Source: Notolepis coatsorum (taxonomy: Eukaryota > Chordata > Actinopteri > Aulopiformes > Paralepididae). From it: DNA of 64,000 nucleotides. The DNA lies in the NCBI GenBank assembly GCA_963971535.1, contig OZ020592.1, positions 56,118,336 to 56,182,335 of the forward strand, given 5' to 3'. A program made the position numbers and the translations under genes. How positions within the stretch are numbered: the stretch's first letter is position 1; the number at the start of each line of letters is the position of its first letter. The notes under the pieces were generated by a model that searched no databases, was not told where the DNA came from, and saw only the letters and a list, made by a program, of their open reading frames with translations. Positions 35,555 through 44,439 of this stretch are shown one piece after another.

Positions 35555-35935
35555 AGGGCGGCTGATTGGCGCAGTGGGCAAGGCGCTCGCCACTAACACA
35601 GGAGACGCTGGGTTCGAGCCCAGCTCTCGGCGTTGCTACCAGCCGTTCATACTAACACAATTGGCAAGTGTTAGAGGGTGGGTGGGGATTGGACGTTGTG
35701 GACAGCGACTCCTACAGGTCGTTTAGACCATACCGTCCACCCCTAGTTTGGTGATGCCGGTGCGGCAGAAGCAGGAAGTAGCGGGGACAGCGTGAGCCTC
35801 CCACACGTTACTCCTCGCCACTGAGAGTTCGAACTGCTGCGGTGAAAAGAAGCGACAGGCTGCCTCCTCGTGTACCGGAGGGGAAACGTGATGCAAGGCT
35901 TCTGTCCTCACTACAACGACCAGTGGGAGGCATAG
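35555..35935 (+). mobile_element. tRNA-derived SINE, copy 2
   Basis: Near-perfect A box (TGGCGCAGTGGGCAAGGCGC) and B box (GGTTCGAGCCC at 35611-35621), then the same body as copy 1. Its 3' side is cut by the left LTR at 35936, and no remainder is seen beyond the right LTR. Confidence 0.85.
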
Positions 35936-36861
35936 TGTGAAGTGCCACAGAACAAGTGACACTTTTGGACAATGACATCCTGGGTCGTTCCTATATGACC
36001 AGTATAAATCTTTAAACTGAACTCTGGAAAGACAGCTCTATGATGGCTCTACTTATAAAAAATGGAACTGAGCCTTTAAATGTCTCCATAGAAGGGGCCG
36101 GTGTCTGTGAAAGGGGAGTTAACCTGAGGAATGTGGCCCTGAGGATGCAACAGCAGAGGAGAGAAAGCTGTAATGTTAACCCTTTCAGACGGGAAGGGTT
36201 GCTGGTTGAAAAACAGGGAGTCCTGAATCTATAGAGGGAGATCTTAAAAAAAGAAACTAAATAACAATTAAATGTTTGATGTGTACAGTAAAAGTTTTCA
36301 AAATGGCATGCTTATAATTGAGTGCCAGTAGAGAATAATACTAAAAGAATAATGTGTAAAAACTGTTTGTCTGGAGGGATTCTTTAAGAGATACTATGGA
36401 GAGGCCTCGTGCATGGTACGATGTCACATGGTCACCACAGACAAAGCCGTTGTCTGTTCTGAAGGAATAAGGGACTTTCTGTTACTTAAAAACCACTAGG
36501 TAACGAGAAGTAACGTTAGTACCAAGAAGGAGGAGCTCATACGAATTACGTATTGTACTCTGGTTTGCTAAACAAAAATGACAGCCTGTGACTTCACTGT
36601 GTTTAGACCAATCGGAAATATTGTAAGATGGATATAAAAGGGACGGTTGCCCTTTCAAGAGCGAGACTTTTTTGAGAGAAGAGAAGAATGGTGCTTGACA
36701 CTGGGCACAAGCCGTGCATGATGAGATGTTCTGTTTTCTGCTTATTTTAAACTGAATTGGGTGCTTTCCACTTCAGTCTCTTCTTGTAACTAGCTTTTTC
36801 TAATTAAAATTACCTCTTTATAAATATGATTTGTATCCTTTCTTCTGACCAGACGACCGGG
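35936..36861 (+). repeat. Left LTR (926 bp)
   Basis: Begins TGTGAAGTGCCACAGAAC and ends near CTTCTGACCAGACGACCGGG. Differs from the right LTR by only about two substitutions that I could find (CACATGG/CACGTGG and ATCGGAAA/ATCGAAAA). A TATA-like TATAAAAGGG lies at about 36633 and a polyadenylation-like ATTAAAATTACC at about 36803, so U3-R-U5 order on the plus strand is plausible. Confidence 0.93.
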
Positions 36862-36897
36862 AAGCGAACTGGCCCTACCCAAGACGAGAGCCAACTA

Positions 36898-37645
36898 GCC
36901 CAGAGACACTGTTTGTAAGGAGGGGAGACGATGTGAAGCGAAGTCAAAACGACCGTTCACAGAAAAGCGAGGGCTCCCTAGCCCAGAGACACTGTTTGTA
37001 AGGAGGGGAGACGATGTGAAGCGAAGTCAAAACGACCGTTCACAGAAAAGCGAGGGCTCCCTAGCCCAGAGACACTGTTTGTAAGGAGGGGAGACGATGT
37101 GAAGCGAAGTCAAAACGACCGTTCACAGAAAAGCGAGGGCTCCCTAGCCCAGAGACACTGTTTGTAAGGAGGGGAGACGATGTGAAGCGAAGTCAAAACG
37201 ACCGTTCACAGAAAAGCGAGGGCTCCCTAGCCCAGAGACACTGTTTGTAAGGAGGGGAGACGATGTGAAGCGAAGTCAAAACGACCGTTCACAGAAAAGC
37301 GAGGGCTCCCTAGCCCAGAGACACTGTTTGTAAGGAGGGGAGACGATGTGAAGCGAAGTCAAAACGACCGTTCACAGAAAAGCGAGGGCTCCCTAGCCCA
37401 GAGACACTGTTTGTAAGGAGGGGAGACGATGTGAAGCGAAGTCAAAACGACCGTTCACAGAAAAGCGAGGGCTCCCTAGCCCAGAGACACTGTTTGTAAG
37501 GAGGGGAGACTAGATGTGAAGCGAAGTCAAAACGACCGTTCACAGAAAAGCGAGGGCTCCCTAGCCCAGAGACACTGTTTGTAAGGAGGGGAGACTAGAT
37601 GTGAAGCGAAGTCAAAACGACCGTTCACAGAAAGGCGAGGGCTAC
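36898..37645 (+). repeat. 83-bp tandem repeat in retroelement leader, about 9 copies
   Basis: Units start GCCCAGAGACACTGTTTGTA and contain GATGTGAAGCGAAGTC and AACGACCGTTCACAGAAAAG. Period 83 bp (starts at 36898, 36981, 37064, 37147 and so on), with 85-bp units near the end through a TAG insertion. Copies are virtually identical. 83 is not a multiple of three, so it is noncoding. It occupies the position of the packaging/leader region. Two decayed units continue to about 37760. Confidence 0.95.
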
Positions 37646-37794
37646 CTAGCCCAAAGCTACGTGACACGCAGCCAAGGCGACCGTTCACTGAATGTTCCCT
37701 GGATGGCTACCTAGCCCGAGGCTACGTGACGCTAGCTAAAACGGCGTGTTCACTGGAACATGGGCTGACAAGCCAGGAGTGAACTGAATGCTAA

Positions 37795-38200
37795 CTGGAT
37801 GACAACCTCCAGCTCCAGGAGACGCTGAGGCAGCGGGAGCGGGAGCTCACGGCCCTGAAGGGGGCGCTGAAGGACGAGGTGGCCACGCACGACCGGGAGA
37901 TCCGAGACCCTCAGGGAGCAGTACAGCACCGACATGGAGAGGCTGAGGAGCAGCATGGAGCAGGTGTCCCAGTCTCAGGCAGGTATCGAGACAGAGCGGC
38001 AGCGTGTGAACACCTCGGTGCGCTCCCTGCAGCAGCAGCTAGAGGACTGCAGGGACGAGAGTGCCCACTGGATGGAGCAGTTCCACACCACCAGAGACGA
38101 ACTGCGAAGCACCAAACAGGAGCTGCTGCAGTCTCGTCTGGAGAAGGAGGAGTTTGAGGAGGAGCTGAAGGAGCTGCAGGAGCGAGATCACTCCCTGCAG
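37795..38200 (+). pseudogene. cgn: Captured cingulin (cgn) coiled-coil fragment
   Basis: Encodes LQETLRQREREL, TALKGALKDEVATHDREI, then (after one extra C at about 37902) ETLREQYSTDMERL, SLQQQLEDCRDESAHWMEQF, RSTKQELLQSRLEKEEFEEE and LKELQERD. These match the rod domain of cingulin, a tight-junction plaque protein, over about 135 residues without gaps or introns; ATKQELLQ-R-EKEE-EEEL favours cgn over cgnl1. The first part is in a different frame from the long ORF that starts at 37934. No other cgn sequence is in the window, so this is a host fragment carried by the element. Confidence 0.82.
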
Positions 38201-40369
38201 TGCATAAACCCAGGACCACGTGGTCACGAGGAAGTGAGGCAAGCGAGAGCAACCTATATATCTCCCCGTGGTGAACACTCAGGGGTGAGAGTGACATCTA
38301 CAAGGTCTCACAGACAATCACCAAACATAACAGTCACTAACTACCCAGTCTGGACCGATAACTCTGATACACCATGGTCAATCCTCACCTTCACTGGACC
38401 GTCATTGACGAACTATGGTAGATGGGAAACAAGCATGGTAACGGCAGGAGGCTCTTACTACCGAAACCTGAGGAAACAGGTAATGGAAAAAAGGACCAAA
38501 AAGCCCCTGAAACCAGGCAAGGCAGTAATCACAGAGTGTGATTATGAGGTGTTTCACGCGGAGAAAATTGTCCATGTGACACTAAGTCAAGACCAATACA
38601 AGGAGATAGAGTCCTCACACATAAACTGGGACAGACTGGTGTCCCGTATAAAGGAACTACTGCAGAAAAGGGAAATCTATGCTGGCCACGGTACTAAGGA
38701 CATGCCCTACCGACTAGCCATAAACCTGATGTGGGGCAGGTCTCGAGGATATGGCCAAAGAGGCATATGGTTGGGGAAAGCCGTAATCAGCGCGATCTCA
38801 AGCCTAAGGAGTGCAGGGCACACGGAGATCCGTCTCATGATGGAACCTAGGGACCATGAGTCAATAACCCTGGCCGTGGATAGAGCCGGGGAGGGTGAGG
38901 AAGACGAGGACGATGAGCCTGCATTGGTACCTCTCACTCCCCCTCCGAACCCTAAGGGATCGGGACCCGTACCCAGGAAAGAAAGGTCCAACTCCCAGAA
39001 CTCCTCCCGAGCAGCGGAGAGAGGGAGATCATCCACACCCAGGAGACCGACAGTACCGTTCGAACCTGAAAAGGCGGAACCTGCGCGATCTCAGGCCAGG
39101 AGTATCCATAGACTTCTAGGCCGTCCCCCGGACTCAGGGGACGACCCAGCAAGTAGCGAACAGGAGTATACTGATCTAAATCAGGACTCAGGAATGGAGG
39201 GAGACCGGGATAGGTCAAGCTCCAGAGCATCCTCCAAGTCTTCATCTCGATCAAGATCTAGGGAGAGAGTTCGGTACCCGAGGGGCGAACCTCCTAGACC
39301 TCGAAACAAGAGAGCGAAACCGGTCAAACTGAGACCTATAGGCAAGGGGCCTACTCTGAAAGGCACCACCTTTCAGTCACCCTCGGGCTTGACCTGGAGC
39401 TCAGGATTGGAGGACGTCTCCGAAGAGAGTGAAGGAGACTTGGAAGGAAAGGAAACAGGGGATATTATGCCAGCATATCCCGTGAGAGGGGGAACGGCTC
39501 AGGCCTTAGCCCGGTCACCCGTGGCAGAAAAAGTGTTGTCTCACCCTGGGGTAACAGAACCATACAAGCATGCACACTTACATGCAGGCTATGACATACT
39601 ACGTGAACAGGTGTACAAGCTAGACAGGGCCATGGCTGAAATAGCCAGGAGAGAAAGAAACTGGTTGAACGAGGCCCCGTCCATAAGCCCAATCCGAGCC
39701 CTGAGACACAGCACAGAGGAACACCGACCGGAAGTGAGCCCTCACTCCATACTAGCCCAATCTCCCGGAGACATTTACCGACCGAGAGGAAAGAGTTCAC
39801 ATACAGGCAGGAGTCTGCGTGACAGCACCCAATATGGAGAAAGCAACAAAGCACAAGAATTGTTAAGCAAAACCCAAGTGCTCAAAAAACTGGCCCCAGA
39901 AATGCTTCGAGGGGAGACCCAGGCTGCTTATATCCATAAGTGTGCTCAGATTTTCCATGGGTCACCTCTCTATGATGACCCGGAGGCCGCTCGCATTTTG
40001 AGACACCTCAAAGGACTGGAGGTCCCCGAAGGGGCTTCAATGGCCCAAATGATGGAAATGGAAGTAAGAATCCCCGGTCAAGATCCAGGGGAAAATATGG
40101 TGGAGAAACTAATCCCACAGGTGCGAGACGGGAGCTTGTCTCTCACTGTTGCAGCAGAATCAGTCATACGTGGAATGCCTAGGCAAAGATCAGGCTTAAT
40201 GCTTGAAAAGCTATTCATCGGTGTACCAGGTGGTAACCGTCTTGCAGCCAAATGCGCAGCATGGTCCCGAGACCAGTTACGGACGGAATGCATGCTGTAT
40301 GACCAAGTCAAAATGCTTTCTCAACACAAATACTGTAAAGATGTCCGTCTTTTCTCTAAACCAGAGTAG
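37934..40369 (+). CDS. Chimeric cingulin-Gag-like ORF, 811 codons
   Basis: Residues 1-89 are cingulin coiled coil and supply the start codon. From about residue 90 (CINPGPRG) the protein is retroelement-like. It has an N-terminal domain without known motif (about 120-310, including NLMWGRSRGYGQRGIWLGKA), an acidic patch (GEGEEDEDDEP), then a long basic/Ser-Arg-Pro disordered region (SRASSKSSSRSRSRERVRYP). The C-terminal helical domain of about 190 residues (LLSKTQVLKKLAPEMLRGET onward) could be a capsid-like module. No CCHC knuckle or protease follows. Gag identity is inferred from position between LTRs and composition; the family is unresolved. The frame is intact, at odds with the deleted pol. 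The domain limits are my estimates. Confidence 0.72.
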   Translation: MERLRSSMEQVSQSQAGIETERQRVNTSVRSLQQQLEDCRDESAHWMEQFHTTRDELRSTKQELLQSRLEKEEFEEELKELQERDHSLQCINPGPRGHEEVRQARATYISPRGEHSGVRVTSTRSHRQSPNITVTNYPVWTDNSDTPWSILTFTGPSLTNYGRWETSMVTAGGSYYRNLRKQVMEKRTKKPLKPGKAVITECDYEVFHAEKIVHVTLSQDQYKEIESSHINWDRLVSRIKELLQKREIYAGHGTKDMPYRLAINLMWGRSRGYGQRGIWLGKAVISAISSLRSAGHTEIRLMMEPRDHESITLAVDRAGEGEEDEDDEPALVPLTPPPNPKGSGPVPRKERSNSQNSSRAAERGRSSTPRRPTVPFEPEKAEPARSQARSIHRLLGRPPDSGDDPASSEQEYTDLNQDSGMEGDRDRSSSRASSKSSSRSRSRERVRYPRGEPPRPRNKRAKPVKLRPIGKGPTLKGTTFQSPSGLTWSSGLEDVSEESEGDLEGKETGDIMPAYPVRGGTAQALARSPVAEKVLSHPGVTEPYKHAHLHAGYDILREQVYKLDRAMAEIARRERNWLNEAPSISPIRALRHSTEEHRPEVSPHSILAQSPGDIYRPRGKSSHTGRSLRDSTQYGESNKAQELLSKTQVLKKLAPEMLRGETQAAYIHKCAQIFHGSPLYDDPEAARILRHLKGLEVPEGASMAQMMEMEVRIPGQDPGENMVEKLIPQVRDGSLSLTVAAESVIRGMPRQRSGLMLEKLFIGVPGGNRLAAKCAAWSRDQLRTECMLYDQVKMLSQHKYCKDVRLFSKPE

Positions 40370-41307
40370 AGAGGACGAAAGAATTTGTAATCTATTTCAT
40401 GCAAAGGGGATTTCCTGACAGCTACCATCTGGTAGGTTAGCACCTGTACCAACCATATCAGCTGCATGAGATGTACACTCACCAGCGCCTATGGATAAAA
40501 ATTGAGACTCTGCAAACTCTCATCAAGCTTAGCACCTTGACGCGGGGGGACAGAGCGAGCATCAGGGTCTCTATATCCGACGGGCCTATCAGATTTGTGG
40601 GGACTCGGAAGCTTCAGCATACAGGACGCTGTGGTGCTTGGGCGGCCGAGTCACTGGTTTATAGGTCTGTCAAAACGGATTGGAGGTTCTGGGGCTTAGA
40701 ACATTCGTGAGTTGGGCTTTATGCTAATTGAATAGGTATCAAAAGCCGAAAGAATATGAACTGAAATAACTGCGGTCAGGGGCCTCTGGAGTAAAATTTA
40801 TTACAGATTTGAGTTAAAACCTTACTCAAGTGTGATCTTATCAGCAAGCAATCCTCTCCAACCAAGACTCCTCCTAAGTGCTCGAGATCTGGAACAATGA
40901 GTGACGTAGAGGTCTGCAAAGCGCAGCAGACAGCCTAAGAGGTAAAAAATCTATCAGGAACAAGAGAGGGTTCATAAGAAACCACTTGAAGTGGCGTTTA
41001 CTCGCGACTAATAGGGCTAGGGAGCCCTAAAGTCACTTGAACTTGAAGTAACTAAATGCTTACTTAAAGTCAGAACTTAAGTAGAAAAAACTCTACTTTG
41101 TGAATAGCAGGCTGAAATAGCCATTGCGAATAGCAGGCTGAAATAGCCATTGCGAATAGCAGGCTGAAATAGCCATTGCGAATAGCAGGCTGAAATAGCC
41201 ATTGCGAATAGCAGGCTGAAATAGCCATTGCGAGCAGGCTGAAATAGCCATTGCGAATAGGAGCGAATAGCAGGCTAACTAGCCATTGCTAACAGGACGA
41301 GGCTACT
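40370..41307. other. Retroelement interior, noncoding, with 26-bp tandem repeat
   Basis: Protease and RT would be expected here, but no motif is seen. 41103-41280 holds about seven copies of a 26-bp unit (GAATAGCAGGCTGAAATAGC, CATTGC). The intervening sequence 40400-41100 has no recognised feature. Confidence 0.6.
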
Positions 41308-41469
41308 CACATGATCAGACAGGTATATGATAACCTTGGACATGCCGGAAGTAGGAGGATGTTGGTATACCTGAGAACTAACAACATTCTCATACATAAA
41401 GCCAAACAAAGAGCGATAACAGTCCGAAAGGCCTGTGAACAATGTGCGCTGGTAAAGGTGCACTGGTAA
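41308..41469 (+). pseudogene. Integrase zinc-finger (HHCC) remnant
   Basis: A short frame reads HMIRQVYDNLGHAGSRRMLV, then YLRTNNILIHKAKQRA and CEQCALVKVHW before a stop. H, H and C-x2-C with LGHAGS--ML-YL and C--CA--K follow the HHCC pattern of retroviral/LTR-retrotransposon integrases. The catalytic core that should follow is missing, so this is the sole surviving pol piece. Confidence 0.7.
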
Positions 41470-41504
41470 AGGGACAAAACCTGAACCAGTGCCGCATTCT
41501 TAGA

Positions 41505-41660
41505 CAAGGGGGGGGGGTCCCCCGGAGTCAGCGGACGACGCAGCGAATGGCAAGAAGGAATATACTGACTCAGGTCAGAAATCGGAAATGGAGGAAGACC
41601 GGGATAGGTCAAGCTCCAGAGCATCCTCAAGGTCCTCATCTAGACCTCCCAGACCTCCCA
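41505..41660 (+). pseudogene. Second, diverged gag-like segment
   Basis: Closely resembles 39120-39245 of the long ORF (CCCCGGACTCAG/CCCCGGAGTCAG, GACCGGGATAGGTCAAGCTC, CAGAGCATCCTC) but with clear differences, about a tenth of positions. It therefore derives from another member of the family rather than a fresh duplication. It sits downstream of the integrase remnant, out of normal order. Confidence 0.75.
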
Positions 41661-42200
41661 GACCTCCCAGACCTCCCAGACCTCCTAGACCTCCCAGACC
41701 GGACAGAGAGACATCGGCCTGGACCCGGGTTACAGGGCGACGAGAGCCCTGAATGGACCTGAAAGAGAGAAAAGAAATGAGTCCTCTGTGGACTGTATCT
41801 GTGATGTCCTGCGAGGCCTACGGACAGGGTCACAAGACCAGGCCAACCACACTTCAATAGAGGACTGCTGCTACAATTCTCGGGGATCCGTGGGGGTCGC
41901 CCGAGAAGTGACAAATCAACCTACCTCAAACTATGGGAGAGATCCAAGAGCTCAGAGGGGGCGACCCCAAGATGACCAAGATGACCAAGATGACCAAGGT
42001 GACCAAGATGACCAAGATGACCAAGATGACCAAGACGACAACAGCCTGGGTGCATCGGCCGGGAACAACAGATGCAAGTCTTCCCGCCGGATACCAAGCA
42101 ACAACGTGACCCCTATCCTGTCGAGCCGTCCAGCCAGGGAACAACAGATGCAAGTCTTCCCGCCGGCTACCAGGGTAACAAGGTACCGAGATGGCAGAGG
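41640..42200 (+). repeat. Low-complexity and duplicated blocks before right LTR
   Basis: CCCAGACCT 9-mers (41645-41700), GATGACCAA 9-mers (41972-42034) and a larger repeat with GGGAACAACAGATGCAAGTC at 42061 and 42137. Open frames through them (PPRP-, DQDDQD-type) are probably repeat artefacts or remains of a disordered Gag/Pol tract. Confidence 0.7.
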
Positions 42201-42454
42201 GGGTGTGGAGAGTCACAGCCACGTGACCCCACAATCGCCATCTCGTCCCCCAGTACAGACGCTATTAAGACAATGGAAAATGACCGCCCAGAATGACAGA
42301 GTGGGTGTGAAGTGCCACAGAACAAGTGACACTTTTTGACAATGACATCCTGAGTCGTTCCAATATAGCCGTATATACCTATTTTTCACATGTAATTATA
42401 TGCTTCATTATTCAATTAATGATGGACAATGATCTCCCAGAATGACAGAGTGGG

Positions 42455-43380
42455 TGTGAAGTGCCACAGAACAAGTGACACTTTTGGACAATGACATCCT
42501 GGGTCGTTCCTATATGACCAGTATAAATCTTTAAACTGAACTCTGGAAAGACAGCTCTATGATGGCTCTACTTATAAAAAATGGAACTGAGCCTTTAAAT
42601 GTCTCCATAGAAGGGGCCGGTGTCTGTGAAAGGGGAGTTAACCTGAGGAATGTGGCCCTGAGGATGCAACAGCAGAGGAGAGAAAGCTGTAATGTTAACC
42701 CTTTCAGACGGGAAGGGTTGCTGGTTGAAAAACAGGGAGTCCTGAATCTATAGAGGGAGATCTTAAAAAAAGAAACTAAATAACAATTAAATGTTTGATG
42801 TGTACAGTAAAAGTTTTCAAAATGGCATGCTTATAATTGAGTGCCAGTAGAGAATAATACTAAAAGAATAATGTGTAAAAACTGTTTGTCTGGAGGGATT
42901 CTTTAAGAGATACTATGGAGAGGCCTCGTGCATGGTACGATGTCACGTGGTCACCACAGACAAAGCCGTTGTCTGTTCTGAAGGAATAAGGGACTTTCTG
43001 TTACTTAAAAACCACTAGGTAACGAGAAGTAACGTTAGTACCAAGAAGGAGGAGCTCATACGAATTACGTATTGTACTCTGGTTTGCTAAACAAAAATGA
43101 CAGCCTGTGACTTCACTGTGTTTAGACCAATCGAAAATATTGTAAGATGGATATAAAAGGGACGGTTGCCCTTTCAAGAGCGAGACTTTTTTGAGAGAAG
43201 AGAAGAATGGTGCTTGACACTGGGCACAAGCCGTGCATGATGAGATGTTCTGTTTTCTGCTTATTTTAAACTGAATTGGGTGCTTTCCACTTCAGTCTCT
43301 TCTTGTAACTAGCTTTTTCTAATTAAAATTACCTCTTTATAAATATGATTTGTATCCTTTCTTCTGACCAGACGACCGGG
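42455..43380 (+). repeat. Right LTR (926 bp)
   Basis: Same length and nearly same sequence as the left LTR. It is followed by TAAGCATG, so the end reads GGG|TAAGC. Upstream, a 60-bp partial LTR start (about 42307-42370, with differences) precedes it, each preceded by CCAGAATGACAGAGTGGG, a duplication of the LTR junction. Confidence 0.93.
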
Positions 43381-43440
43381 TAAGCATGAAATGTGTTTTG
43401 CAACTTCACCCTATTGCATTTTTGATTAATGATAAAAAAA

Positions 43441-44040
43441 TAGAATAAGTGGCTTTATCCCTGCATTAAGGACTAAAGGTGGATTCTGTATAATGGGATT
43501 ATCAAGTAAAGCCATATAGTGATAATATGTGTACTTAGGAGACATATGATTATGTATTAAGGCAAAATAGAATAAGTGGCTTTATCCCTGCATTAAGGAC
43601 TAAAGGTGGATTCTGTATAATGGGATTATCAAGTAAAGCCATATAGTGATAATACGTGTACTTAGGAGACATATGATTATGTATTAAGGCAAAATAGAAT
43701 AAGTGGCTTTATCCCTGCATTAAGGACTAAAGGTGGATTCTGTATAATGGGATTATCAAGTAAAGCCATACAGTGATAATACGTGTACTTAGGAGACATA
43801 TGATTATGTATTAAGGCAAAATAGAATAAGTGGCTTTATCCCTGCATTAAGGACTAAAGGTGGATTCTGTATAATGGGATTATCAAGTAAAGCCATATAG
43901 TGATAATATGTGTACTTAGGAGACATATGATTATGTATTAAGGCAAAATAGAATAAGTGGCTTTATCCCTGCATTAAGGACTAAAGGTGGATTCTGTATA
44001 ATGGGATTATCAAGTAAATCCATATAATGATAATACGTGT
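43441..44040. repeat. 127-bp tandem repeat, about 4.7 copies
   Basis: Units begin TAGAATAAGTGGCTTTATCC at 43441, 43568, 43695, 43822 and 43949, almost identical. Starts 60 bp after the right LTR. AT-rich, noncoding. Confidence 0.95.
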
Positions 44041-44439
44041 AACGGATAAGGGAAATGGACCTCATCTAATTAAAGAGAGTCCGTCCCAGTGCAAATAAAA
44101 TAAAAGATTCCGCAACTTCAATCACTCGACCTTAGGTCGATGACTGACGGGGGTCGGAACGGTGCATTCGCTGTCTCTTGTCGGTCAGTGGTAACAACAA
44201 CATTTTGTAGACTCGTTTGGTTCTGCGTGTCAACCACTTCACAGGACGCTGTTTGATGTCAAGATAAGCAGACCAATGAGTTATGAAGTTATCGATCTGA
44301 CCTAAGAGCCAGCGTGGGCATTCAACACATAGTCTAGCAACGTTCAAGACAGGGGAAGGAAGAATTGGATAATACGAAATTGGGATGTGAGAATAATAGA
44401 AAATGGGGAGAAAAAGTGGATACATTTTTTTTTTATAGC
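44041..44439. repeat. Unclassified repeat with Charlie-like hAT scrap
   Basis: 44335-44425 matches 16570-16645 of the hAT inside L1 (AATACGAAATTGGGATGTGA versus GATACGAAATTGGGATGGGA). The preceding 300 bp are unrecognised. Confidence 0.4.

Follow-up and report, generated by a model that had tools for sequence, protein, structure and literature searches.

Sequence evidence for the capture of spliced cingulin mRNA by a long terminal repeat retroelement in a fish genome

We describe a long terminal repeat (LTR) retroelement of the fish Notolepis coatsorum in which a piece of the host cingulin gene (cgn) forms the beginning of the element's single long open reading frame (ORF). The element lies in a window of 64,000 nucleotides (G000:C24:56118336-56182335; genome of 3.42 Gb), and related copies occur at many other genomic places. 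One of them, L051, keeps a longer cgn piece, in which host exons are joined exactly at their splice sites; judged by sequence comparison, it is a recent capture of spliced mRNA from the lineage's own cgn gene. We propose that such a capture was followed by shortening of the cgn piece and by spread of the resulting cassette between LTR lineages, and we give this whole account a probability of about 0.78.

Host cgn exons joined in the long capture copies

The donor gene was located with fish cingulin queries. Residues 624-1215 of the fish cingulin P0001 gave 12 genome matches, with exons on the minus strand of C46 (79.455-79.468 Mb) and a more distant cingulin exon set on C7, which we take as a putative paralogue. 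The preceding part of the protein matched exons A (C46:79484586-79484687), B (C46:79484161-79484298) and C (C46:79476641-79476742), all on the minus strand. The same search returned two intronless places, C48:644950 and C1:103921955; the long capture copies L051 and L055 lie on C48 and C1, respectively.

The leader of L051 ends in the same manner as that of the window copy, and the 5′ cgn junctions of the two are identical. In L051 the junction is followed by 201 cingulin codons in unbroken frame and then by the start of the element ORF, with 928 codons in the open frame. L051 was identical at 385 of 387 bases to the joined host exons, to which A contributed 71 nt, B 112 nt and C the 204 nt fetched. 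Both host introns are of the GT...AG type and are exactly absent: exon A stops before GTGAGG and exon B starts after CCCAG, while exon B stops before GTACCC and exon C starts after TGTAG. The 3′ cgn junction is also that of the window copy. L055, which has a window-type leader end, shared 227 of 228 bases with L051, counted from the 5′ junction onward. The original prediction, made from the letters of the window, had proposed a capture of the kind known from acute retroviruses, and the source in spliced host mRNA is borne out by these exon joins and by the intron-containing donor exons on C46. The same comparison settles that the stretch is cgn and no family-wide part of Gag; the prediction had named such a Gag part as an outcome fatal to it.

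Three further cingulin exons on C46 (79396511, 79404237 and 79794343) lie on the plus strand, opposite to the rest of the gene, and may stem from an inversion, from another copy of the gene or from faulty assembly.

Cingulin segment of the window copy

Residues 1-89 of the window ORF gave 252 protein matches among 588 candidates. Identity to the 120 proteins listed was 80-91%; most were named cingulin or cingulin-like and came from fishes, the remainder being unnamed, hypothetical or uncharacterised. The best match covered 76% of the query with 91% identity. Chance resemblance is excluded because of this level of identity, and the best matches are consistent with the fish host that had been predicted. 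When the 120 listed proteins were compared with the window by tblastn, all 241 matches fell in the cingulin segment and none elsewhere.

The captured segment occupies 37795-38185 on the plus strand and consists of a piece of exon A joined to exon C. Its predicted 5′ junction at 37795 is exact, but the 3′ junction lies at about 38185 (residues QER) and not at 38200. The stretch had also been read as an uninterrupted cingulin rod; it is cingulin, but by comparison with L051 a piece of 222 nt is missing between two 11-bp AGGAGACGCTG repeats, which stand 222 nt apart in exons A and C, respectively. The missing segment matched only L051, L055 and the three host exons (five matches, four of four candidates scored). 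A one-base frameshift is located at about 37902. Downstream of it, the 811-codon ORF (37934-40369, plus strand) was confirmed as predicted; it opens with cgn codons and continues into the protein of the element itself. The 89 codons ascribed to cingulin are in frame, but 84 of them derive from cgn and the other five do not. The first ATG of this frame sits inside the cingulin part, which we presume by homology to be coiled-coil rod.

Short form, copy number and ORF integrity

The common, short form carries both the 222-nt (74-codon) deletion and the one-base frameshift. The best 40 cgn matches, the window among them, each covered the full 416 nt at 99-100% identity, and 30 fetched copies aligned with the window over this length without gaps and with at most two mismatches each. 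The frameshift predicted near 37902 is present in all 30 fetched copies, of which the window copy is one. Two match lists combined gave at least 102 distinct cgn-bearing places, a count that takes in the window and leaves aside L051 and L055, the DNA comparison covering the best 40. Copies at so many places rule out the assembly artefact against which the prediction had cautioned.

In 24 of 30 copies (L001-L030) the ORF stayed open as far as the fetched piece reached. Its length of 811 codons was kept in 16 of 21 full copies (20 fetched and the window), the other five having ORFs of 117, 464, 593, 808 and 826 codons, and the cgn part contained a single variable site among the 16 full-length ORFs. 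A search with a piece of the downstream ORF returned, among its top 40 matches, seven without a place in the cgn lists, which are themselves incomplete; the candidate numbers of these searches (823 for the ORF piece, 127 or 331 for cgn) are not copy counts. The search for a pre-capture junction gave half matches only among the best 40 of 832 candidates. In L039 the start of cgn follows immediately on a leader repeat, probably as a result of recombination.

Contrast between ORFs and LTRs

The 16 full-length ORFs differed by 0.43% per pair, with proportions of synonymous (pS) and non-synonymous (pN) differences of 0.0053 and 0.0040, respectively (pN/pS = 0.76). Purifying selection was considered as the main cause of this identity and rejected, synonymous sites being nearly as conserved. 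Between the 21 elements, the best LTR segments had a median identity of 87.8% and took up a median 25% of the shorter LTR piece (208 of 210 pairs). Several copies had just a short LTR part in common with the window copy, together with a post-ORF stretch that was 90-99% identical. In 19 of the 21 elements the two LTRs of the copy agreed at 99% or more of their aligned part, and therefore most insertions are recent; six of the 21 pairs were fully identical, and the lowest values were 95.3% (L031) and 97.4% (L034). Since the ORFs are near-identical while the LTRs are very different, the cassette has probably moved recently between LTR lineages by recombination.

Gag-like protein and search for other retroviral genes

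The part of the ORF that follows cgn had no match in Pfam or among PDB sequences, and NCBIfam gave weak coiled-coil matches only, within the cgn part. No relatives were found in a large protein database for residues 150-811 (7999 candidates scored) or 620-811 (824 candidates), nor did the element ORF match any viral contig. Cingulin is in frame with this ORF, which we call Gag-like by position alone: the name Gag in the original prediction suits the place of the ORF in the element, but none of the four sources, Pfam, PDB sequences, the protein database and the viral contigs, contained a match. The sense frames other than the main ORF were no longer than 297 codons in the window copy and in 20 others, which were fetched as 9.8-kb stretches. 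No pol or env of Retroviridae was recognised in the element, three of the minor frames having been compared with Pfam; a decayed pol may be present.

A reverse transcriptase-like ORF in L034 (Pfam E 0.044) was considered as a trace of pol and dropped, as its translation reads as the end of a long interspersed nuclear element (LINE) and had no PDB match. This LINE-like end lies inside the element copy, at 6421-7311 of L034.

Proposed history and alternative explanations

In the history that we propose, an LTR retroelement without recognised pol would have taken up part of its own lineage's spliced cingulin mRNA, which became joined in frame to the element's single long ORF; the origin, the frame and the loss of introns can be read directly in the copies. 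A copying error between the 11-bp repeats would have caused the observed loss of 74 codons. The frameshift, likewise observed, would then have arisen. The common form would start at a methionine codon within cingulin, and this short cassette would have multiplied. Template switches of reverse transcription, carried out by enzymes that a partner presumably provided in trans, most likely brought it from one LTR lineage into another. We consider it likely that the cgn piece is a tolerated passenger that provides the protein with its start codon and with a coiled coil at the N-terminus.

Several points weigh against this account. Neither pol nor a partner element nor a pre-capture copy was found in limited searches. 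The host-exon comparison (A, B and 204 nt of C) stops short of the 3′ join of L051, and the 3′ junction is known for L051 and the window copy, L055 having been compared over 228 bases from the 5′ junction. The 20 full copies were a non-random choice from the best cgn matches (14 plus-strand and 6 minus-strand of 40). The pN/pS of 0.76 neither proves nor excludes function, and the contrast between LTRs and ORFs could also be caused by fast LTR turnover or gene conversion.

Among the alternatives, the stretch could be an ordinary Gag part of the family, or a generic coiled coil that merely resembles cingulin. Other coiled-coil families did give weak scores, and the sole PDB sequence match was weak (Protein swallow, E 0.086). 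Nevertheless, the top protein matches are fish cingulins, and this explanation is refuted for practical purposes because the spliced host exons match L051 almost completely and the introns are cleanly missing. An insertion of a LINE-made processed cgn copy into an older element copy, later multiplied without involvement of the element's reverse transcription in the capture, would predict the loss of introns equally well, and the LINE-like end that we read inside L034 indicates that LINEs were once active in this genome. However, both ends of the segment lie within cgn coding sequence, inspection of the sequence by eye revealed no poly-A tail and no duplication around 37795 or 38185, and the fusion in L051 is sense and in frame over all of its cgn codons within a far longer open frame, all of which makes such an origin improbable.

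The remaining alternative concerns function: the captured coiled coil may be under selection, aiding assembly or membrane targeting of the element protein, and may have driven the burst. The near-invariant cgn part of the full-length ORFs, the retention of full length in most of the full copies and the position of the frame's first start codon, now in cgn, would all fit. On the other hand, pN/pS is 0.76, 74 codons and a frame are already gone from the common form, and the burst is too young for a good measure of selection; we regard selection of this kind as unlikely. Slightly less likely still is that the cingulin coiled coil altered assembly or location of the protein and thereby caused a rapid sweep of the cassette through many LTR lineages. 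The different multimerisation and the action on tight junctions that the original prediction had suggested stay conjectural.

Comparison with known host-gene captures

The N. coatsorum element is a new version of retroviral host-gene capture. Capture of genes by retroelements is usually known from tumour viruses or old relics. Here one genome contains the donor gene, a long capture that is in frame, the shortened form and its burst, all with very little decay, and the steps of capture and the spread between LTR lineages are therefore directly testable. Acute transforming retroviruses are defective elements with gag-oncogene fusions made from spliced host mRNA. Our element resembles them in its source in spliced host mRNA, in the in-frame fusion at the Gag position and in being defective; unlike them, it has no oncogene, bears the host piece at the N-terminus, occupies many genomic places and encodes a protein that is Gag-like by position only. 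Plant LTR elements such as Bs1 also contain captured gene pieces. Bs1 is likewise a non-autonomous LTR element with a piece of cellular cDNA, but it belongs to a plant and to another element type.

The closest precedent is given by endogenous retroviruses of crocodilians that captured mRNA of KIT-ligand or nectin3 (PMC4299795). In these, KIT-ligand is inserted between pol and env, nectin3 stands in place of env, and the captures were dated by the authors before the split of the host species (PMC4299795). Host mRNA was taken up and then multiplied in the germline in both systems, but in N. coatsorum the fragment opens the element's own ORF, and the donor gene is almost identical, with the steps of capture still visible. 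The same report names walleye epidermal hyperplasia virus, which has ORFs similar to cyclin D (PMC4299795); it is also a fish retroviral element with host-derived sequence, but there the sequences are separate additional ORFs in a virus. Within the portions of the literature consulted on cingulin together with retrotransposons or endogenous retroviruses, no such capture was found.

Architecture of the element and traces of splicing

The element spans 35936-44327 of the window and is flanked by 5-bp target-site duplications CATAG (35931-35935 and 44328-44332). Paired LTRs, TG...CA ends and the duplication identify it as an LTR retroelement. The duplication was read directly in the window copy; a script resolved it in 6 of 20 fetched copies and in neither the window copy nor the other 14, some of which are cut by the fetched ends. 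All parts lie on the plus strand. The 5′ LTR extends to its splice donor (35936-36860), with the remaining LTR and the primer-binding site absent, as if spliced, and is followed by the leader (36861-37794) with 83-bp tandem repeats (9.1 units, 36895-37653). Downstream of the ORF, a stretch with no recognised gene (40370-42454) precedes the complete 3′ LTR (42455-44327; TGTGAAGTG...CAACA), which contains the splice donor CCGG/GTAAGC, with 43380 as the first base of the expected intron. Tandem repeats of 127 bp also lie in this LTR (43437-44041). The two LTRs are 99.7% identical over 932 columns. Leader repeats and an LTR pair are both present as predicted, but the predicted extent of the element was too short, since the 3′ LTR reaches 44327 and takes in the 127-bp repeats.

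With the patterns used, the LTR donor CCGG/GTAAGC was found in 18 of 21 copies and the leader was preceded by ...TTTGCCCACAG/GAA in 13; neither edge was found in L038, L042 and L044, and no acceptor in L049 and L050. The primer-binding motif TGGCGTCCC, which we take to correspond to tRNA-Asn, was present in 18 of the 21, directly after the LTR end where that end is displayed; the window copy, L031 and L036 lack it. At the 5′ end of these three copies the donor edge runs straight into the acceptor edge; in the window copy the leader follows directly on the 5′ LTR end at 36860. We infer that the three descend from spliced RNA, because the intron covering the LTR tail and the primer-binding site is missing from the window copy, and the joined intron ends suggest that spliced element RNA was reverse-transcribed. 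Their LTR ends may have been supplied by strand transfer via the R region, which is possible because the window copy keeps its target duplication.

Downstream of the ORF, 41517-41644 is a diverged copy (81%) of the ORF piece 39123-39250. The 83-bp leader repeat contains ATGTGA, a start codon with a stop directly after it, and all 21 copies have 6 to 13 such sites in the 1.3 kb upstream of the ORF. In L048 (about 1924-1970 of the reversed locus), the sequence continues past the primer-binding site with what is presumably further tRNA-Asn sequence, as though copying of the primer had gone too far.
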